DNA of 64,000 nt from Haliotis asinina (taxonomy: Eukaryota > Mollusca > Gastropoda > Lepetellida > Haliotidae), in assembly GCF_037392515.1 (NCBI RefSeq), contig NC_090290.1, forward strand, positions 39,951,753 to 40,015,752, written 5' to 3'. The position numbers and the translations under genes were made by a program. The notes under the pieces were generated by a model. It was not told the DNA's origin. It saw only the letters and a list, made by a program, of their open reading frames with translations, and did no database searches. Shown here in pieces: positions 6,377-50,300 of this stretch. Each line of letters starts with the position of its first letter. Within the stretch, counting starts at the first letter, position 1.

Positions 6377-8907
6377 CTATATCTTTAACACAAGCTGACC
6401 TCTTCGTGCCACAAATACATCTCCATCTTCCTCTGGAACTGGATTCCCCACCATCTGGGCCAAACTTCGTTTTTCTGGGGGAGCCAACTGAAAGCTGAAT
6501 GAAAGGTCACAAGACTTGAGGCTGTCCAGCTCCAGAGCTAGCTGAATCAAACCCTTGCCTCCCATTAGACTAAAGATGTTCCAGTCCAGCAACAGTTCCT
6601 CCAGATGTTCTTTGTTCTCCAGGGCCTTGACTAGAGCCTCCACCCCTTCATCTCCTACCATGTTCTCCCTCAAATTGAGATGCTGTAAGAATCTGAAGAA
6701 CAACAGGCATGTTGATAGCTGCTTTATCTTGTCATCAGACATGCCATTCTTCTGCAGACAGAGAAAAGTAACATTTGCCATATTTTGGAAATCAGACGGA
6801 TCGTTGAAGATTGATACTTTACCGAGGTCACAGTCCCATAGACTGACATGGTCCCATGCTGATGAAGATCGGAACAGGATCAGAAGATTCTTATAGAAAT
6901 TCTCAGTGTCTCCACTTGTGCTGTTGCAGTCGAAAAACTGTATGTTCCTACAGGCAGATAGCTTCTTACACAGCTCAGACGAGGATCTGCCTGTCATGTT
7001 GTTGTTCCGCATAGACAGTCTCTTCAGACACCTGTGAACTGGGAGCTGCTCTGAGAGGATGCGGACACCTTCGTCCCCTATGTTGCACCCCCAAATGCTA
7101 AGGATCTCAAGGTGCTTCAATGCAAACACAAGCTGACCAAGAATGGCTCCTCCAACATCACCCAAATGGATATTGTGGATTCTCAGTGCTTTCAAATGTG
7201 TCTTGGTTATGAGAGCTGATGAAAGTATTGCAAATCCACTTGGGGAAATGCTGTTGCTACCAACATTGATGGTCTTCAATTTGTCCATGTTTCTTATTTC
7301 CTTGACAAGGACAGGTATCATGCTATCTGTCAAACCTGTATTTTCTAATTCCAGGGATTCCATGCAATGAAATCTAGACAAGCCTATTTCTCCTTCATCT
7401 AGATTTAATGAGCATCCATGTAACGACAGGCTGCTCACTATGGCTGGATTCAGCACAGATATAATTTGCTTTACCCTGCAAGTATCCAGACCTGAGTTGT
7501 CAAAGATGTAACTGGTAATATGATCAAACTGAGGTAGGAATTTACACAGCAGTGATACCTGCTCCTTGTACAGAGATGTGTTTGACATGTCCAGCTTAAA
7601 TGACCAGTCTGATGCTCTTGTGGAAGTGAAACCTTTGGCTAGATATGCATCCAAATGAAGACAACCACCTGACTCAAGAATGGGATCACTATCAGGGGAG
7701 CTGGTCTCTTGGGATTGCCCCCTAGGCTTTAGTGGTTTGCCACTATAGAATGCAGCATGAGCGACAGCACTATCTGCTTTCCAAACTGACAAATCCTCCC
7801 GACATTCCATGGGTTGTAAGAGGTCAAGGAGAGCCACACATCTGAAAGCAAGCTGGAAGTTATAATCACAGGCTTTGGAAGAAAGTGATATCACATTACC
7901 CTGTCCAACATGCAGAGCCTCCTTCAAAACCAGTATACTCTCTTCAAAAGTCTTGCTGTCAAGACTGCCTTTGTTAACCAGTTCAATCTTTTCAAGGCCA
8001 AAGTTTGCCGCAACTGTTTTCCATGTTCTCCAGTGCCTGTCTACATCAGGTGACTTGTGGCAAGCAAGGAAAGATTCAAAGTCAAAATGTTGTAGGACTA
8101 CTTTTAGACTGTCTTTGACTTCTGCAGATGTTTCACTAGCCTTAACTGAAGACAAGAATAGAGCAACATCAGGGAAGTACAGAAGTGAGGCTGGAAAATG
8201 AGGTAATTGTGACAACAGTCCACAATAACATGCTGCATGGGCCAGGAAGATACCAGCAAATGTGACCAGACTGAAATCAACCGAAGATTCAAGTGTAAAG
8301 TTTGGGTCCAAGAACAGGGTCAATGGCAACTGATCAGCCATGCGAGGAAGGTGGTAACAAAGTAAATATGCCCTTCTCACTGACCCAGGGATGCTGTACA
8401 CGTTACCACCTTCAGAGGTCAAGGTTAACCATCCTTGGGAAATGAGACTCTCAACTGGATTGGACAAAGTAGGATCCAGCAGGTCTGCTTGAATCTCTTG
8501 ACTGATGGCAAACTCCTTCTCATCATCACTCCATACCACCTGCCACTTGTCTTGTCTTTTCAACTGCACTGTGTCAACATTTCTCTGCCTTTTCATGAAG
8601 GATCTTATCAAGACATTCAACCCAATTTTAGTCAAATCATTCTGAACACTTTCAGTAATGCTAAAGTATTGATGAAGGCGATCCATGCTATCCTTTATGG
8701 TATGACATAATGGCTTTTTCAACAAAGACATCACTTTATGTTGCAGTTCTGAGGTGTCAAAGGTTAGACTAATTACTTCCTCAAGAAATTTCTGATATGA
8801 GGAAGGTAGAATGTCAAGAAGCATTTGAGCATTAACTGGTTTCTCTTCACCAAATGTGTCAACAGGTGTTGTGAGGGCTGTCACGTAACTGCTTGGAGAT
8901 GGCAAAT
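6377..8907 (-). CDS. CARD-LRR gene, coding exon 5 (middle region and LRRs)
   Basis: A 2531-bp terminal exon opened by acceptor 'cattttttcag' and closed by TAG after 'QLVLKI'. The first half is helical with a possible winged-helix stretch ('DDEKEFAISQEIQADL', 'LISQGWLTLTSEGG'). It leads into repeats of the pattern LxxLxLxxNxIxxxGxxxLxxxL, e.g. 'LKTINVGSNSISPSGFAIL' and 'LQHLNLRENMVGDEGVEAL'. About eight LRR units can be seen. Some central ones are irregular. The last about 40 residues are polar and acidic. Confidence 0.88.
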
Positions 8908-11900
8908 CTGAAAAAATGAAAAATAAAGTAATTTTTTAACCTTTACAACATTACTTACAAATAAAGATTCAACATTGAATGACAAGAAAGTACATTGTAC
9001 ATTGTACCCTGGTTATATTGCCACCATGGATATATTATAATATCATGTTTTTGCCCAAATGGAGGTCCTGCCTATGTAATACTCTTGTTATAATGCCAAA
9101 CTGCATTTAATGCTATTTGCTAACGGTTTGGGGGTCCAAAATCATTTTCCCCTTGTTATAATGCCAAGCACACTGGGTGCAAGTAGGATACATACATAAA
9201 TCGGTTAGCTGGCATAACATAAATTAAGTGACCAAGTTCATTCATGCTTTAAGTAGTCTTGTAATCGCTGATGGGATATCATATGTGACAATACACTTGC
9301 CAACTGCAACAAGAAGTCACCTGTAGCCCCAATATGCTGGGACCTGTGAAGGTCCCGGGGTAGAATAGGCCTTCAGCAACTCATGCTTGCCATAATAGGC
9401 GACCATGCTTGTCGTAAGTGGTGACTAATGGGATCGGGTGGTCAGACTCGATGACTTGGTTAACACATGTCATCGGTTCCCAATTGCGCAGATTGATGCT
9501 CATGCTTTTGAATCACTGGACTGTCTGGTCCAGACACGATTATTTACAGACTGCCGTCATATAGCTAGAATATTGCTGAGTGTGGCATAAAACTAAACTC
9601 ACTCACTCCCCAATATGCTGGAATTATCCAGTCATTCAGGACACATCACGCTTAGTCATGCTGTTGACTGCACAGGGCCTCTAACTGTCCTACCGGGCTA
9701 TAATGCCACCTTGGATATAATACAGTACTATATGATCTCCTGGGTGGAAAAACTGTGGCATTATAACCAGGCTATATTTTACTTCTGTGGCAGAGAAGTT
9801 AACCTGCTTGCACAAGGTGCAGCCTAAGATAATAACCTAGTTGCACTAGCCAAATTCCAGTTGCACTGCTTAATTTGCAATGTATATTGAAAGAAATGTA
9901 CTATTAAATTATCTAGATGTCTTATTCAGATATTCACATTTGTGTTGACAGCACTGATGAATAATACTGAATGTTATTGTCAGGTCAAAGAATCACAACA
10001 AGCACGTAATGTGTGATTTCACCAGCAAAAAAATCATTAAGATTTTACTTTTTCAGAGGTGATAATCAATTTGCATTACATGCCGGGGGGATAAAAGTAT
10101 GACCAGCAGGGTACATAAAAAAGAAATAAAATGGTCTTGCCTTACTTCAGTATACTTTTATCTCTACTCTAATATACTAAACTTGGCTTGATATTCCCTC
10201 TAACATATGAATACAAGAATATTGATTAATCCCTGTACTTAATTTGTGATGTAGTTCAAATGAGCGTAAACCAAACATGTTGATTCCTAAATACATGCTG
10301 GCTGATGGAACTCACTTGTGAATTTACAATGTCGGTTACAAGAGACAGTTTGCACTAAAAACATATTTGGGACCAGATTTGAGAATTCAGAATAGATGAA
10401 TGTTGGCATAGAAGGAGCTTCTTATATAATATTATATAGTGATAAATTTAGGACAAAATGAGCATGTTGATTTGCAGAGAATTTCAGATTATGGAGATAT
10501 CAGTTTAAAGAAAGTCCACTGTATTTATAAGGACAGGAGCAGGAGGGAAAGTTCAAAGGTGAAAGAGTTTGCTCATGTTTTATTCCCCAGCAAAGTTTCA
10601 TGCCCATTTCTGGTGAACCCTTATGTGATTTTAAGGTGAACCCTGAAATATGCTAGAAGCAGCATAAACCATCACTCACTCGCTCGCTCACTCACTCACT
10701 CACTCCTACACTCACTCACTCCATGTAGGGGCGTTGTGTGGCCCAGTGGTAAAAACTTCACTCGGAATGCAAAAGACTTGGGTTCGATCCTCCACATGTT
10801 TACAATGAGTGCAGACAATTTCTAGTGTACCCTGCCATGATATTGCTGGAGTATTGCTGAAAGTAGCATAAAACCCAATTCACTCACTCACTCTGTAGAA
10901 CGATAATTGATTCTTACCACTGTCATCCAGAAAATATTCACATTCAGAGAAATCATCTTCCAATATTGTGAGTTTCAGCGACAAATTCTTGACCTTCACC
11001 CCTCTGCTAGCAGCCTCCTTCTGGATTCTCTGTCGTGTTGCTGTGTTGAGGATCCCCTTAGACAGAGCATCGCAGAGTGCTCCCCCCTCGTGTAAGCTGC
11101 GCAGGTTGTAAAGTGACTGAATACTCTTGACTTGGAAGCTCAGTTCGAGGCAACCATAACTACTACTTCGGAACAGGACATCGCTCATCTGCAACACAGT
11201 TTTGGAATGCTTGTTTGCAATTAATAATATTTTTCACAAGTTTTGGTTTCTCTGTTTCATTTCATAAACACTGCTTGCTCGTTTCAAGTCATGATTGAAG
11301 TTATCTTAAAGAGTTCAAGAAATTTATCTTCTTATTATACTAGTCATCCTTTCATGATGTGAAATTTGCAAGTGCACTGGGTGCAATCTACAATGAAAAT
11401 CTGCAATCTGCAAGAAACATAACCAGGAAAATTTGATAAATGACGCTAACCAATTTTGATCGGTTGTAACGAACCAATGATCAATTATGCATCATGTGAT
11501 TCATAACTGAAACATTCTACCTAAATATTCATCTGAATCTTTGTCTGTTATGAAGCAACATCTACTGTGCTATTTGAGACTAAAATATATTTCCTCATAA
11601 TGTCAGTTTCAGTTTGATTTCATTTAGACTTCATGTTATGAATATAACATCAACAGTGATGTCCTGAAGATGTATACATCCATGGGAAATGGACAATTTA
11701 TAAACCATCATTTATAACATGAAAACAATCATCCATCACAAATGTCTTGTTCACAAACCATCAGAGTGTGAATGCATCATCCATGATAATTGTATAATTC
11801 ACAAACCATCAGAATGTGAATGCATCATCCATGATAATTGCGTAATTTATAAACCATCAGAAGGTGAATGCATCATCCCTGATAATTGTATAATTCATAA

Positions 11901-29315: not shown

Positions 29316-31982
29316 ATGTCACGCGGTTCATCGCGAGGTGATCTAGAGACAGGGAAGGGGACCATGTTAAGTGAACGTGGTCCACACAACAGTGTCCCTG
29401 TGGACAACTACCCAAGTGGAGATGGGAAATCGTACGTGTATGAGGGATCTGGATATTACGTCCCATCAGAAAGAAGCTGGGTGAAATACCATGAGTACAG
29501 GTCCATACCCCCTAGCACTCGCCGAGATGCTATTTTGTTCGAGTCCGAGGAACAGTGGCGGAAATATCAAAGTCAGCGAGACAGCCGCTCTGCCCCTGGT
29601 GGTGAGAATATAAATTATTATCAATTTCCAGACCTGCCTACCTGGCATATTTTTTGTATGGTTTGTTATCATTAAGTACGATTATACGCCCACATAACAG
29701 ATTGTACGCCAGTCGAGTTATAGTTGTCCAAAAATAGTTTCATTTCACACTGTAGTTCAACTTTTAGCATTAACCATCACTGAGAACATCCTTGTCTGTT
29801 CTTCCAATATTGCTTACAAATGGCAACCGCATGGCTGACCAAGGCATTGACAAATCCCAGATTCGAAAATCTGAAAATTACCCTCTGATCAGACTGAGAA
29901 ATACACTTCCATCCCCAGAACAAACAGGTCAACTAAAGGAGCCAAGTATGTGTATTGTACATACTACCATGCAGACATTAATATTGCGCATTTGGGAGAC
30001 ATGCTGTGAGGAGCCAGATTATATCCTTTATGAGATTGTACACTCCTACACCTCAAAATACATTTTTAACCACCTTGATTACACTTTGAAAGCCATTGGG
30101 GTAGGCAGGTCTGAATTACCAATGCATGAATCATATGAACCATTTTGTACACAAAATACTAGCAGTAGGCATATGTCCCTGCATGAATCATATGGACCAT
30201 TTTGTACACAAAATACTAGCAGTAGGCATATGTCCCTGCATGAATCATATGGACCATTTTGTACACAAAATACTAGCAGTAGGACCATTTTGTACACAAA
30301 ATACTAGCAGTAGGCATATGTCCCTGCATGAATCATATGGACCATTTTGTACACAAAATACTAGCAGTAGGCATATGTCCCTGCATGAATCATATGGACC
30401 ATTTTGTACACAAAATACTAGCAGTAGGCATATGTCCCTGCATGAATCAGTAGGCATATGTCCCTGCATGAATCATATGGACCATTTTGTACACAAAATA
30501 CTAGCAGTAGGCATATGTCCCTGCATGAATCATATGGACCATTTTGTACACAAAATACTAGCAGTAGGCATATGTCCCTGCATGAATCATATGGACCATT
30601 TTGTACACAAAATACTAGCAGTAGGCATATGTCCCTGCATGAATCATATGGACCATTTTGTACATAAAATACTAGCAGTAGGCATATGTCCCTGCATGAA
30701 TCATATGGACCATTTTGTACACAAAATACTAGCAGTAGGCATATGTCCCTGCATGAATCGTATGGACCATTTTGTACATAAAATACTAGCAGTAGGCATA
30801 TGTCCCTGCTGACCACCTGGGCTGGAAATGATAATCAGCCATATCAGCCCAAAATCTGTATCAACCGATTTTCCTGGCTACAAAACTGGTACTGAATAAA
30901 ATATACTCAAACGCTTGAAAATTAAAAAAATGGAGCCTAGTTGATTTAAGAGTTGAGTTTGTTGATGCAGTAGACGTTAAAAGGGTTGTTATATGTCAGT
31001 TTCTAAGTCATCATGGACTGATATGACTGGCAAAAGGAAAACTGTCATGTAATAACCTCCTAATATTAACTGTTTCAAATGTTAGAGATTTAGTGAGTGA
31101 GTGAGTTTAGTTGTACGCCACACTTTATATAGTGGCAGTCAGTAAATAATCAAGTCAGGACCAGACAATCCAGTGAATCAACAGCATGACTATCAGTCTG
31201 AGCAATTGGGAAAAAATAACATGTGTCGACCAAGTCAGCGAGTCGGACCACCCAATCCCATTAGTCACCTTTTATGGCAAGCATGGGTTGCTGAGAGCCT
31301 ACTGTTTTCCTGACCTACGTGGTTTTGTTACAGATTTAAGTGAGCGACGGAGTTCATAATCTGTTTGCAGTGACAACATACCGATGAATTTCATATTAAA
31401 CAGAAAAGTAAATCCATCAAAGTGAAAATAAAATTGCGAATACTCATACCTTTTGCCTTGCCAGTTGAAAATTTAAATCTCAGAATTTTATTCAGCTGAA
31501 GATAAAAGTTGTTTAAGAAATGATCTTAGTTTCAAATCGTTATTATTGTTTTGTATTTCACTCACTGAATACAACCCTCGATCTTTCAGGATGCTGTGTG
31601 CTGACTATTTTGTTAAAAAAATACATGACATGTACATTCCTCTTAGCGAAGACAAAAGTCTGCAAATAAGACACAATGTCTAGAGAGTATTTTTTCCATG
31701 TCTAAGTGAACTAATCACTGACATATTATTATTGCAGGTATTACATTCACTGGAGTTCCCCAGCTCCGTTCAACAACACCATTATCTGCATTACTGCCAT
31801 ATCAGCGCAATGCATGGACGAAGCCATGGTCTGGGTCAGGGTTCTTTGTGGCTCCTACAGACAAATGGATTCATGAACAAACCGGTCCAGGAATACCCTC
31901 CAATGCCTACCTGTTTTACAATGAAGAAGACTGGATCAAATTCCGATACCAAGTGGAAAACCCATCCATGAAAACAACCTGA
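29316..31982 (+). CDS. Unrecognised Tyr/Trp/Pro-rich protein, 176 aa, two exons
   Basis: Exon 1 is 29316-29601, ATG 14 bp after acceptor 'ctctatttcag', donor 'gtgaga', phase 1. Exon 2 is 31738-31982, acceptor 'ttattattgcag'. Exon 1 ends in a stretch closely matching the 167-aa protein: 'YYVPSERSWVKYHEYRSIP', 'TRRDAI', 'EQWRKYQSQRD' and 'PGG'. Exon 2 encodes ITFTGVPQLRSTTPLSALLP onward with 'SGFFVAPTDKWIHEQTG' and 'YNEEDWIKFRYQ'. The intron again splits a Gly codon. No signal peptide. AATAAA lies 222 bp after the stop. Function unknown; same family as the divergent gene at 25233. Confidence 0.78.
30123..30812. repeat. 57-bp minisatellite, about 12 units, intronic
   Basis: The unit contains 'tgcatgaatcatatggacca', 'ttttgtacacaaaatactag' and 'cagtaggcatatgtccc'. 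The period is exactly 57 bp, with two shortened units near 30285 and 30450. It keeps several frames open on both strands but lies inside the intron of the 176-aa gene. Confidence 0.93.
31092..31330 (-). repeat. SINE family A copy in the intron of the 176-aa gene
   Basis: Starts with (GTGA)n and 'gtttagttgtacgccacact'. The flanks 'agatttagtgag' and 'agatttaagtgag' look like a decayed target duplication. Confidence 0.8.
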
Positions 31983-35689: not shown

Positions 35690-38209
35690 ACCAGAAATGG
35701 GGTTCACAAACTGTACATATGTGGGTAATCAAATCCACGTTTTTGGCATGACTGGTTGCTTCAATCTCTACACATCCCATCCCCCACTCACAAATGACTA
35801 TAGTCCACTAACCATCTTCATTAAAGGTCGACGTATTAATGTGCATAAAGCATATAAAGGATATAAAGGATATAAAACAGAGAACAGTAATATATAAATG
35901 ATGTATTTATTATCCCCTGAATTAATACATTATGGAATGTAAAGACTGAAAAATCAATGCTCCTCATCTGATGCCTGACCAGGAAATACAGAGAGCTATT
36001 GATGGACATCAGTATCCTACAGTTACCATGGTAACAAGGTCATGGCACCACCGCATGATATATGATTTTGTCAATGTAAAACAGTGGTAAAGTACAATTA
36101 CACCATTGCAGATATACCAAGAGGAAATCATTCAAATAATCTCCCCTCAACACTGATTTATTTCTTAACTGTTGAAAGAATGTGAAAGTTACAACATATG
36201 ACAACTTAATTTCCTTTTTCTTCAAATAATTTTTGGTTTGAATAACTCCTCTTTGTCAGACTTGATATGTTTTTCAGTGGACCACAACTGGTGAATCTAA
36301 TATAACGGTAAATCAAATATGTCATTCTGCAAGGGACGGTTTATAACAAAATGACAACACAATGACTTTGAGTGAGATCTGGAAGCGAGAATCTCGCCCC
36401 TTTAAACATGGTTAATATCCCATATCAGTACTAACAGTTAATCTGTGCCAGACAAGATGAAGCTAGCTAAAATTAGCATATGCTTATCAGCAATATTGCA
36501 ACACTCAGTTTCAACTCATTCCTTTCATCTCCAGGGTTAAGTTACTAGCCCACAAGATAATTCACTAGCCTGAAGTTTTAGAAATTAAATTAAAGATCAC
36601 AAAATCAGATGGCAATGAGATATTGCTGGCTTGACACAGGTTTCACAAGTCTGAGGGAGTGATTATTTGATATTTACAAAATGACCACAAGAAAATTCAC
36701 TAGCCAGTCATACCGGTAAGTCTGGAGATTTACTGTACTGACAGGATTTTCACTTGCCATGGGCTAGTGGAACTGTGGCTATTTTGCACACTGCTTACAA
36801 TGGTTATAGCACTAAGATTGCTTTGTGAAACTGGTTCCATTCTGCAATTTCAAATTACCTGTGATTAAAATTCATTAACATTTACTGACATATGACAGTT
36901 TTTAGGTTTCAGTGTTTAATTTCTCGTGAACTTGTTCATGAACATGGGCTGGTTTAACTCACATATGTTTGACCTATAAAAGAAAAATCAAGGAGAAGTA
37001 ACTGAGATTGGCAGAACCATGAAAAAGGATCCTGGTATTAGTGAAGGTTTACTGACATACTTCTCAGGGTCCTGATACATATAGAGTTCGTAACTTTATG
37101 ATCTGTTGTAACTAAATAATTTACTATAGATTTATGAATGTCGCAGCGCAACAAATGCTTTGTGGCCCTGGAGATCAGAGAATGATCTCTTCTTAGACTC
37201 TCACAGTAAGTGACAACAATCAAAAACCATCCAGCATCACTCATGGATCTCCACATCTTCACCTACAGCAGTTTATGACACAAACACCCTCATCATTATT
37301 ATTGTTATTATTAATACCCTTATTAATACCCTTATTAATACCCTTATCATTACACCTAGATAACTCTTACATCAGTTGTATCAGACACACAACACATGTA
37401 TTAAGCAACCATTCATCATTACATGCCATTCACAACAAGTCAAGCGTGTTAGAATAAACTTTGTTACTCCCATACACAGAACCGAGAGACTTGTGTGGTT
37501 TTCCGTCCTAAATAAAACAGTATCTTCATGCTATCCATCTTCACGCTATCCAAAATTACAGGCACATGTTGGCAAACATCTTGAGTTTCTAGAGTAACTG
37601 ACTGAGGAACGCAGTTACCTCTACAATTACCACAATTAATTATTACAAATCCCTGTAAACATATTTACAAATAAACTACAGTCCACAAAGTTTCGTTGTC
37701 CTCAGTGAATTAACCTTGTAAGTTCCAAGTCTTGCCAAGTAAATTTTGAATTAATTCAGAGGGACAGATAAATCAAAATTCTGGATTGAAAAACAAAATG
37801 AGAACTTGGAAACTAACAATATTGAGACCTTACCAATCATATTCAAAATGCATCAATCCTTACTTTACCAAACAATCTAGATCTGTTTTAAGTACCAACT
37901 CATTATACACAACGCCCAGTTAACCTATCATAGTCGACAAAGACGGTAAAGGACTCACATTCTGCTTCTATTTTGTATTAGACAGAACTGACGAACATAG
38001 TAGTATATATGTATATATACAAAATACCCTCACTGCCATGTATTTTCAGGTGCCCTGATGAAGCAGTATGCATTAACCTGATGATACTAAGATGATTGAC
38101 TGGAATGAATACATTAAAAACACTCTGCAAAACACTGCCACTCATAAACACTTGGGTGACATATCTACCATTGTAATACCACTAATGTGAGGGTTAGAGT
38201 GGTCTCCCT
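35690..38209. other. Unique sequence downstream of progranulin
   Basis: No gene or SINE recognised. A short 'cccttattaata' tandem sits at 37314-37350. The part next to 38210 should be the progranulin 3' UTR. The nearest clear minus-strand AATAAA candidates are near 36157 and 35905, which would imply a UTR of about 2 kb. Confidence 0.4.
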
Positions 38210-38329
38210 TTATGGCATGCGGTAACCTAGGATGGGAATCGTTGCGTTGTTCTTCCAGCAAAATCCAGTTGTTGGTGCACAGTGGTAACCAACTGGACAG
38301 CAGTGGATCTTGTCCTCACAGCAGACAGC
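38210..38329 (-). CDS. GRN: Progranulin terminal exon
   Basis: Acceptor 'cacaatgttgcag', 40 codons including TAA. It encodes the C-terminal half of granulin 15 (AVCCEDKIHCCPVGYHC...GFC) and a short tail 'NATIPILGYRMP'. 'NAT' is a possible N-glycosylation site. Confidence 0.92.
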   Translation of the reverse strand, partial: AVCCEDKIHCCPVGYHCAPTTGFCWKNNATIPILGYRMP

Positions 38330-41300
38330 CTGCAACATTGTGTACAACATTATAGTAAAGTCTGCAACATTGTGTACATCATCATAATTCAGCCTGCAAC
38401 AATGTGTACAACATTATAGTTCAGCCTGCAACAATGTGTACATCATCATAATTCAGCCTGCAACAATGTGTTCAACATTATAGTTCAGCCTGCAACATTG
38501 TGTACATCATCATAATTCAGCCTGTAACATTGTGTTCAACATTATAGTTCAGCCTGCGACAATGTGTACATCATAATTCAGCCTGCAACATTGTGTACAT
38601 CATCATAATTCAGCCTGCAACATTGTGTTCAACATTATAGTTCAGCCTGCGACAATGTGTACAACATCATAATTCAGCCTGCAACATTGTGTTCAACATT
38701 ATAATTCAACCCGCAACATTGTGTTCAACATTATAGTTCAGCCTGCAACATTGTGTTCAACATTATAGTTCAGCCTGCAACATTGTGTTCAACATCATAA
38801 TTCAGCCTGCAATATTGTGTTCAACATTATAGTTCAGCCTGCGACAATGTGTACATCATAATTCAGCCTGCAACATTGTGTTCAACATTATAATTCAACC
38901 TGCAACATTGTGTTCAACATCATAATTCAGCCTGCAACATTGTGTTCAACATTATAATTCAACCTGCAACATTGTGTTCAACATCATAATTCAGCCTGCA
39001 ACATTGTGTTCAACATTATAATTCAACCTGCAACATTGTGTTCAACATCATAATTCAGCCTGCAACATTGTGTACAACACCATAATTCAGCCTTCAACAT
39101 TGTGTTCAACATCATAATTCAGCCTGCAACATTGTGTACAACATCATAATTCAGCCTGCAACATTGTGTTCAACATTATAATTCAACCTGTAATATTGTG
39201 TACAACATTACTGTTCAGCCTATAGTTCAACATTGTAGTAATCGTCTCAATCCACATCCAACACACACCCTCTGTGCTGGTAGTGAGAGCAAATGAAAGA
39301 AACACCTATTGTGAGACTCACTATTTTGGTGAATTGGGTGGAGTTGAGCTAGGCTTTACATCACATCAGCATTATTCCAGCTAGCCAATTCAGGTGGAAT
39401 ATAGGGTGTGAATCGTTGCTCAGATTACTGGATTATCTGTTACTGTCATGAAACAGGCCACTAACATGTAGCTGAATACTGCTGATTTCAACCTCATATG
39501 ACATATAGATAAGGAACACTTACATTAGCTTCTGGACAACAGCCATAGGAATTATTCTGAAGCTGACAGCAGGTACTTCCATCTGGGCATTTACTGGAGT
39601 CGTTGCATGTGATGTCCTTCACTTTGTGACCATTCTTCGTAAAGAGTTCTTGTTGCCAAGGCAATATGATCTTCGGTAGTTTTTTCAAGGGTTTGGAAAT
39701 TGTTGGGTTTTTCTTTAACCAATTCACTGAGTAGCCATCTGGTCTCTTACATAGGCCAGATCCTGGAGAACATGTTGTTCCTTCAGGGCAGCAGTGAACT
39801 CCATCAGAACAGCACACAGCCTGGAAACAAATTATTACAGGACATCACTCAGTGAAAGTAGTGACAGCATTTCCAGGAGATCACTTCTCAAAGATCATTG
39901 ACTTTCTTACCTTTAGCAGAGGACAGCATCCCCACTCGCCAGACAATAGCTTACAACAGGTGCTTCCATCTGGACATTCATGGGTAGAGTCACACATTAC
40001 ATTTTCCACATTCTTCACAATGGGTGCAGTTTTCTTGAACCACGTGAGAGAGAGCCCATCTTGTTTGTTACATCTGCCAGATGCTGTATCACAAGTTGTT
40101 CCCTCAGGGCAGCAGTGAATTCCATCAGAACAGCACACAGCCTGGAAACAATATCACAGGACCTCACTCAGTGAAAACAGAAAGAGCATTTCCAGAAAAA
40201 TCACTTCTCAAAGATCATTAACCTTCTTACCTTTGGCAGAGGACAGCATCCCCACTCGCCAGAGGACAGTTTACAACAGGTGCTTCCATCTGGGCATTGA
40301 TGGGAAGAGTCACACATTATGTTTTCCACATTCTTCACAATGGGTGCAGTTTTCTTGAACCACGTGACAGAGAGTCCATCTTGTTTGTTACATCTGCCGG
40401 ATGCTGTATCACAAGTTGTTCCTTCGGGGCAGCAGTGAATTCCATCAGAACAGCACACAGCCTGGAAACAATATCAGAGAACCTCATTCTGAGGGACAAA
40501 AAAAGAGATTATTTCCAGAAGATCACTAACCTCATAAACCATCACTTTCTCTATGGACACTTTTATTCGTAATATCCCACAAATCTGATACAATCTCACT
40601 CCTTTGGGCAATTATCTAAATAAAGTCCCTCTGACCCGGGCATTATCTTAATAGCATCACCCTGCTACTGAACTTTGAATTATTACATTCAAGTCTCGAT
40701 GAGATCCGACATCGTCCACTGCACAGCAAATTGTCGGATTAGACAGGATGTCAGAGTAAATAAATGATACTAAATAACATTTATTCAATTTGTTACCAAA
40801 AAAAGTATGTGGTCTTTTCTTGGAAAATGGGCTTACTTTTCAATAATGCCAGCAGGTCATGTTTTATCATACACATAGATCATTGACTCTCTTACCTTTG
40901 GCAAAGGACAGCATCCCCACTCGCCAGAGGACAGTTTACAACAGGTGCTTCCATCTGGACATTGATGGGTAGAGTCACACATTACATTTTCCACATTCTT
41001 CACAATGGGTGCAGTTTTCTTGAACCATGTGAGAGAGAGTCCATCTTGTTTGTTACATCTGCCAGATGCTGTATCACAAGTTGTTCCCTCAGGGCAGCAG
41101 TGAATTCCATCAGAACAGCACACAGCCTGGAAACAGAATATCACAGGACATCACTCAGTGAAAACAGAAAGAGCATTTCCAGAAAAATCACTTCTCAAAG
41201 ATCATTAACCTTCTTACCTTTGGCAGAGGACAGCATCCCCACTCGCCAGAGGAAAGTTTACAACAGGTGCTTCTATCTGGACATTCATGGGTAGAGTCAC

Positions 41301-47300: not shown

Positions 47301-50300
47301 TTCTTACCTTTGGCAGAGGACAGCATCCCCACTCGCCAGAGGACAGTTTACAACAGGTGCTTCTATCTGGACATTCATGGGTAGAGTCACACATTATGTT
47401 TTCCACATTCTTCACAATGGGTGCAGTTTTCTTGAACCAAGTGATAGAGAGTCCATCTTGTTTGTTACATTTGCCGGATGCTGTATCACAAGTTGTTCCT
47501 TCGGGGCAGCAGTGTATTCCATCAGAACAGCACACAGCCTGGAAACAGAATATCACAGGACATCACTCAGGGAAAATATACTCATGGAAAAATTTAAGGG
47601 AATGCATGTTTCTTAGGGCAATTCAAAATTTCTGTTTACTAACTTCGGCGCTGTGTCTTATCGTTTTCGTGAACAGCACTTCACTCAAACTCACCATAAT
47701 GTTTTCCTAAAGTTACATGCACTTAGATTTACACGTGACATGTATGTGCACTGTCAAACACAACGGATAAAACCATTGTTAACATGGCGAGACAGTACTT
47801 AACTTTGACACAGAAGTGGGAGGCAATTGGCATGGTCAATTGTGGAATCTCATTACGACAGGTTGCAACAACTTTTCACAAGTCTGTTAGCATGATATCC
47901 AGACTTTGGAATCTCTATAGAGCGACTGGTGACGTCAAAATGAGGCGTGGTCGGGGATGGAAAAAGAAAACCACCCAATGGGATGACCGGACCCTACACC
48001 TTATTGCTCTGCGAGACAGGTTCAAATCCTCCTCCAAAATCAATATGGAATTCAGGCGAAGAACAAATGTCAGAATTTGTTCATGTACAGTGCATAATCG
48101 TCTTAAATCGGCTGGACTAAAAAGCCGCCGTCCATTGGTTGGAATCAACATGACTGAGCAACGCAAGCGCTTGAGACTGCTGTGGGCACAAAATAATGGA
48201 GGAAGAACCGTGCGTCAATGGAGAAACACCATGTTTAGTGATGAGAGCAGGTAGACACTAGACCATAATGACGGTCGAATTTGAGTTTGGAGACACGGGT
48301 TTCCCTTTAACCACAAAACAGATCTTGTGCATGTTGATGGCAGGTGTACGATATCATGACTAAATCTTGAACCTGATTGTGATCCCCTTTGCAGGTACAG
48401 CAAGTTGAATGTTCGAGTTCCAGTATGACAATGCCCGCCCTCACATCGCTCTTGTTTGTCTGGACAGTGTGGGGGCTGCAGGTGTCCCGATGTTGGAATG
48501 GCCAGCTAAAAGTCCTGACCCTAACCCCATCGAACATATTTGGGATGTTTTTGGCCGCAATGTTCGGGACAGGCCTGTTCAACCCAACAATTTGGATGAA
48601 CTTTCCGTGGCTCTCCTAGAAGAATGGCATAGAATTCCGATTGGTACCATCCGTACACTCATACACAGCATGCCACGATGATGCTAACAGTTCTCCAGAG
48701 ACATGGGGTCACACCCGATATTGATTTTCATCACTTGACATAAGTCTTTTCATATGTATGAACTTTTCTCTTACTGTTTCAAAAGATTTATAGTCAGAGC
48801 TATTTCATGCGTTCCCTTAAACAGAAAGAGCATTTCCATTAAAATCACTTCTGAAAGATCATTAACAATCTTACCTCTGGCAGAGGACAGCATCCCCACT
48901 CGCCAGAGGACAGTTTACAACAGGTGCTTCCATCTGGACATTCATGGGTAGAGTCACACATTATGTTTTCCACATACTTCGCAATGGGTGCAGTTTTCTT
49001 GAACCACTTGATAGAGAGCCCATCTTGTCTATCACATCTGCCAGATTTTGAATTACAAGTTGTACCCTCAGGGCAGCAGTGAAATCTATCAGGACAGCAT
49101 ACAGCCTGGCAACAATAACATCAGACCTCACTCAGTGAAAATAGAAAGAGCATTTCCAGAAAATCACTTCTCAAAGATCATTAACGTTCTTCTTATTGAG
49201 ATTAAACAGTTAACACTTTTAGATGCTTTGGATAGATTGTTTAAAACATCAGACGAATATGCACACAGACTGTTCTCACACTTATTCCTTATTCATTTGA
49301 CTTCAAGTTTACATTTAAGGTACTTCTATCAAGAAGGAGTTTCAATAACCTATTATACTTCTCGTTTCAGTCGAGAACATTGATTATTCCCAAATGAGTG
49401 AGTGAGTGAGTGAGTTTAGTTTTACGCCGCACTCAGCAATATTACAGCTATATGGCGGCGGTCTGTAAATAATCGAGTCTGGACCAGACAATCCAGTGAT
49501 CAACAACATGAGCATCGATCTGCGCAATTGGGAACCGATGACATGCGTCAACCAAGTCAGCGAGTCTGACCACTCGATCCCGTTAGTCGCCTCTTACGAC
49601 AAGCTGAGTCGCCTTTTATGTTATTCCCAAATGAAAGATGATGAAAAGAAATAATAAGATTGATACCTTTTAGTAAGGAACAGGGCAAGACCAATGGAAA
49701 GGAAAGATTGCATCTCATCTGTAATTGCAGGCCTACAGCAGAGCCTGAGCCACAATCAGAGGATCTAACTGATGACGGAGATATCTTGGAGGTAGTGCGA
49801 GGCAAAAGTGGTATTCAATCTCCTAAAGCACCTCTCCATGAAGGCCTGTAGGGAGCAGTTCCTGTGGGAGAGCCATGGTAGATGCCAAAGCCTGTGTCTT
49901 GTGGCTGCTGGCCACTGTAAGCGGAGGAAGGTGTGTGTAAATAAAACTGCTAAGGATGGTGAATCACAACCAAAATGCTGGAGTGGTATGAGAGACTTCT
50001 GTAGTTGAGGCAGTCGATAGAGGCATAAATGGTCTCTTGTGCAACCTGCATCAGTCCTTGGAAGTAGCCAGGCAGACCTGCGATGCCTTGACAGGACAAA
50101 TGGAGAGATCTTCTGAGTCATCAGGGCTCAAGATAACAGCGGAGTTGTGAAGTGTGACCCGGCTGTCCTGGTAATTGATTTATTGCGACAAAATCTCATC
50201 GTAAACTGGAGTACGAAACCAGAAAAATTTGCAGAGGCCAAAGCTGAAGTTGGAAGTCGAAGTTGAAGCTGAGAGTCAAGGCCAGCGCTGATTGCAATAA

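Follow-up and report, generated by a model that had tools for sequence, protein, structure and literature searches.

The progranulin gene and its last intron

The window, which is the whole stretch of 64,000 nucleotides of Haliotis asinina DNA that was analysed, contains part of a progranulin gene on its minus strand. This gene carries 39 granulin half-domain exon starts across 60 kb (98338-38212 on the scale of the window), and a motif scan of the window joined to the upstream gene DNA placed these starts, all of them C-half starts, from 98338 to 38329. Exon blocks of 320 bp that are near-identical to each other are found within the gene. The exon start at 98338 has ggtAT before it in place of the AG of its siblings, and otherwise resembles them. 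When the whole genome was searched (1.143 Gb in 159 contigs), 39 granulin matches were obtained, 38 at the progranulin gene and one elsewhere on contig C11, where it sits in an open frame of 372 residues. Six Egg_lysin matches were also found in the genome; this family is characteristic of abalone and close relatives.

The penultimate granulin exon (39524..39820, minus strand) encodes the C-half of one granulin, a linker, and the N-half of the next, as judged from its translation and from Pfam Granulin. It ends at base 39524 and is followed by the last intron (38330..39523, minus strand), which is 1194 nt long, in phase 0, and has a GTAAGT donor. The true acceptor AG of this intron lies at 38330..38331 (minus strand) and the terminal exon begins at 38329. 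The coding part of this exon (38210..38329, minus strand) encodes AVCCEDKIHCCPVGYHCAPTTGFCWKNNATIPILGYRMP followed by a stop, and is matched by Pfam Granulin with an E value of 2.7e-8; searching the genome revealed no second copy. The motif AATAAA is absent from about 1.9 kb downstream of the stop codon, and ATTAAA is present at 36920.

Other features of the window include a Transposase HTH match (PF01498, HTH_Tnp_Tc3_2) at 47739-48251, between granulin exon blocks, and a 57-bp array (19 codons per unit) at 30105-30809 inside an open frame of 235 residues. An open frame of 852 residues with leucine-rich repeat matches lies on the minus strand at 6380-8935.

A minisatellite across the terminal acceptor

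Most of the last intron is taken up by a minisatellite, array 1, whose units carry an acceptor-like core. TRF reports it at 38326-39221 (minus strand) with a 32-bp unit, 28.2 copies and 87% matches, confirming the proposal of the initial annotation that an acceptor is repeated about 28 times beside the true site. The array spans the exon-intron boundary and reaches 4 nt into the terminal granulin exon, while a degenerate distal edge (39222..39243, minus strand), judged by eye, ends at about 39243. Allowing at most two mismatches, the window contains ACAATGTTGCAGGCTG 27 times, always within array 1, against 0.03 occurrences expected from shuffles. The units are less uniform than was initially proposed, when cacaatgttgcag|gctg was said to be identical in every one of them. 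With the true site included, AG stands at the acceptor position in 27 of the 28 units, CAG in 26, and CAG|GCTG in 21, and the exact 17-mer is found in only 13.

The 28 units comprise 17 distinct sequences, two units being 29 nt long, and three consecutive identical dimers of 64 nt (units 6-11) occupy 38868..39059 on the minus strand. Unit identity is 0.911 at lag 2 versus 0.875 at lag 1. The most diverged 32-nt units are those at the edges: unit 1 differs from the consensus at six positions and unit 28, the exon-proximal unit at 38330..38361 (minus strand) in the unit list, at five. These divergent edges, together with the dimer periodicity and the three identical adjacent dimers, are clear signs of internal turnover, and the presence of identical adjacent dimers in one haplotype suggests that some of it was recent. 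Searching the genome with the DNA of array 1 argues against a dispersed satellite: besides array 1 itself it recovered four matches, all weak (65-67%), at two loci, one of which holds the array 3 described below.

In order to ask which acceptor is favoured, we scored the AGs of the intron with a matrix derived from 18 of the gene's 20 distinct acceptors, leaving out 38329 and 70173 and keeping the AT-ending 98338. The true acceptor at 38329 scores -2.91, the same as two decoys (AGs at the acceptor position of upstream units) and below nine other decoys of array 1. Decoys 39123 and 39059 match the true site at all 20 intron bases. Acceptor strength was thus rejected as a discriminator, and with the true site no stronger than the decoys, some use of the latter is plausible. 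The best acceptor-like AG in the last intron, at 39276, lies upstream of array 1 and scores 7.06. A match of the type yUnAy, the branch-point motif, is found as TTTAC at -27 of only one of 29 AGs of array 1, which is the true acceptor in unit 28. This motif says little as a discriminator, as it is not typical of the gene: an AG-free yUnAy match was seen at only 2 of 23 sibling acceptors (38329, 70173 and 98338 left out).

Splicing to a decoy had been expected to give Ala-Glu-Leu-stop and to remove the last half granulin. The loss of the half granulin is borne out by translation, and the predicted tail applies to most decoys. Among the 26 decoys of array 1 that have AG, 20 would read AEL and stop, four VEL and stop, one TLL and stop, and one, at 39091, would add a tail of 22 residues. 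Retention of the last intron would read nine residues and then a stop. The downstream-junction rule predicts no decay when a stop lies in the last exon; decay of a decoy-spliced transcript is therefore unlikely, because the stop would fall within the extended last exon.

Two further arrays that span acceptors

The genome contains two more acceptor-spanning arrays, both beyond what the initial annotation could cover: one belongs to the same gene and the other to a different one. Array 2, which is more degenerate than array 1, lies outside the window at 70150-70617 on its scale (L029:6203-6670; the TRF rows are interrupted from 70488 to 70357) and adjoins the progranulin exon that starts at 70173 (L029:6226). 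One TRF row, of 33 nt, stops 24 nt within this exon and another, of 61 nt, stops at its first base. The units match the first 26 bases of the exon at up to 21 of 26 positions. Of 947 pieces of equal length drawn at random from the locus, excluding draws within 2 kb, none matched at 21 positions, and the best matched at 19. The GVCCSDHI of the exon recurs in the units as decayed codon copies, namely GVCCTDQV, GICCTDQV, and DMCCADQV. The exon start encodes GVCCSDHIHCCP, and since this granulin motif also occurs at other exon starts, copying at array 2 ran from exon to intron. Only two of the 33 AGs listed as decoys (70218 and 70206) are in frame with the exon, and use of the nearest in-frame decoy would insert 11 residues.

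Array 3 belongs to another gene (L107:388-1260, contig C3, 9273287-9274159 of genome assembly G000) and was called as a tandem repeat with a 15-bp unit in 58.5 copies. The exon that follows it has five other matches on the same contig, of which three (L108, L109, and L110) were compared, and all three have an AG acceptor in phase 1 at the homologous place. By homology the true acceptor at array 3 is predicted to be gcag|GTTATGATGG, with 1252 as the first exon base; with the acceptor placed in this way by three paralogous exons, the array extends 9 nt into the exon. It contains 57 AG|GT sites and hence 56 decoys, 55 of which are spaced from the true acceptor by a multiple of 3. In 52 of the 56, at least 8 of the first 10 exon bases are matched. 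Fifty of the 56 are open in phase 1 through to the exon, so that their use would add GYDVA-like pentapeptides. The last in-frame stop upstream of the exon falls within the array, which places the acceptor used inside array 3 unless the frame has its own start codon. Alternatively, array 3 may be a coding repeat whose acceptor lies at a more upstream position within the array; Pfam gave a sub-threshold Decapeptide match to it. A plain coding repeat was dropped as an explanation on the homology with the three paralogous exons, which identifies an acceptor-spanning array.

For comparison, 40 exon starts of two other families were sampled (20 of 157 SRCR matches and 20 of 112 P450 matches), and in none of them did a minisatellite lie across the apparent acceptor. 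This sample is small and was hand-picked for spread, and its acceptors were judged by eye and are not all certain. Array 3 was found through its likeness to array 1 and was excluded from this sample. In the granulin gene, 2 of 39 exon starts have an acceptor-spanning array, many of these starts being near-identical copies; at a third start (63217) a 4-bp repeat stops 29 nt short. Two other candidates were not counted, one because its array ends about 58 nt ahead of the acceptor (L100) and the other because it consists of 2.4 copies of a 12-mer within an open frame (L066). An intronic 28-bp array at L106:694-1090 stops about 37 nt short of an apparent acceptor.

Origin of the array and comparison with known systems

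Lancelet genes contain splice-boundary repeats known as mirages, whose units comprise the end of an intron and the start of the next exon. Arrays 2 and 3 have units of this composition, and array 1 shares with its exon GCTG only. Nothing above background was found when the first 26 nt of the terminal exon were sought in its own intron, the best match being 14 of 26. The initial proposal that array 1 grew from the splice site thus gains more from the copying of exon starts by arrays 2 and 3 than from array 1 itself. The case for such a seed, as read from sequence, is supported by the four shared bases, by the edge that abuts the exon, and by arrays 2 and 3. In a weak placement test, array edges lay 0-30 nt into an exon twice against 0.37 expected (P 0.05), and acceptors inside arrays showed no excess (2 observed against 3.2 expected).

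We consider it probable that array 1 is a minisatellite of the mirage kind, seeded by tandem duplication around the acceptor, and that its decoys are noise rather than a regulator. A short segment around the acceptor would have been duplicated in tandem, after which the array may have been enlarged and homogenised by slippage or unequal exchange as its outermost units drifted. The exon-proximal copy would remain the main acceptor because of terminal-exon recognition and perhaps also because the unit upstream of it has diverged. Splicing to the decoys would then be noise at a low level, cutting short the last half granulin without any regulatory role. Weighing against this reading are the absence of such arrays from the 40 sampled exon starts, the weak placement test and the lack of any advantage in acceptor strength for the true site.

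A different origin would have array 1 arise within the intron from unrelated sequence, its last unit becoming the acceptor once the original was lost. The limited sharing with the exon suits this account, as does the weakness of the true acceptor, which is unlike the acceptors of most sibling introns. Tandem arrays are also frequent in the gene (19 merged arrays with units of 10-100 bp in 62 kb), and the better-scoring AG at 39276 lies upstream of the array. Arrays 2 and 3 point in the opposite direction, however, with the exon start copied into the repeat, and GCTG opens 37 of the 39 exon starts of the gene, so that it is older than array 1; on balance we find an intronic origin unlikely. It is very improbable that the array or its copy number has been inflated by an error of assembly. 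Assembling long tandem arrays is difficult and the gene contains near-identical exon blocks, but the contig spans 58.6 Mb and the variety of unit sequences and the two 29-nt units are unlike a copied read.

Decoys could also be used often enough for the length of the array to determine how much progranulin is full-length and how much is truncated. AG is kept in 26 of the 27 upstream units, two decoys equal the true site over 20 intron nucleotides, and nine score higher. Where two human 3' splice sites are separated by 20 nt or more, the upstream one is preferred, less so under exon definition (PMC9225289), and an intronic VNTR of human ABCA7 alters splicing with its length (PMC5954066). Against this, the ABCA7 isoform that keeps one VNTR unit is put at about 2% and does not vary with length, the event that does so being the skipping of the exon that follows, and splicing is reported as undisturbed by lancelet mirages (PMC3087553, PMC3902484). 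A truncated end exon also offers no obvious benefit, and we give a regulatory role little weight compared with splicing noise. A broader possibility, which seems to us quite remote, is that the genome breeds acceptor-copy arrays repeatedly, with graded outcomes and self-buffering growth. Each added unit would lengthen the intron and move it toward exon definition, which would favour the exon-proximal acceptor, and residual decoy use would yield length-dependent protein variants. The predicted outcomes differ among the arrays: truncation at array 1, an in-frame gain of those 11 residues from the nearest in-frame decoy of array 2, and pentapeptide multiples at array 3.

Several described repeats resemble array 1 in part. 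The ABCA7 VNTR, in intron 18, has 25-bp units that start with the two bases of a splice donor, and an isoform retaining a single unit has been observed; it differs in that a donor is multiplied rather than an acceptor, in that its length affects skipping of exon 19, and in that an effect and a disease link have been measured (PMC5954066). In the canine merle insertion in PMEL, repeat length at an intron-exon boundary likewise governs the choice between the original and a cryptic acceptor, but the repeat is the mononucleotide tail of an inserted SINE and contains no acceptor copies (PMC7349775). Closest in taxonomic terms is a length-polymorphic 27-bp minisatellite in intron 3 of an abalone (Haliotis) TSSK1-like gene, for which the available part of the report describes no span of a splice site (PMC6905558).

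The lancelet mirages, reported in Adh3, the globins BflGb6 and BflGb9, PGBD5, and troponin C with splicing undisturbed, and considered as a way in which new introns may arise, have the same anatomy as array 1, a repeat over a splice boundary (PMC3087553, PMC3902484). The globin mirages have 3-6 copies of 150-160 bp units versus 28.2 copies of 32 bp in array 1, and for Adh3 a unit length of 10-72 bp is stated, within which 32 bp falls. Array 1 is set apart by its 28 copies, a unit with four exon bases, its position at a terminal exon, and its occurrence in a mollusc; no mollusc mirage was recognised in the open-licence literature. The locus offers a natural test of how the spliceosome chooses among 27 near-identical acceptors. 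Array 1 probably represents, in a snail, the kind of splice-boundary repeat known from lancelets, and three cases in two snail genes would mean that the mirage process is not peculiar to lancelets.
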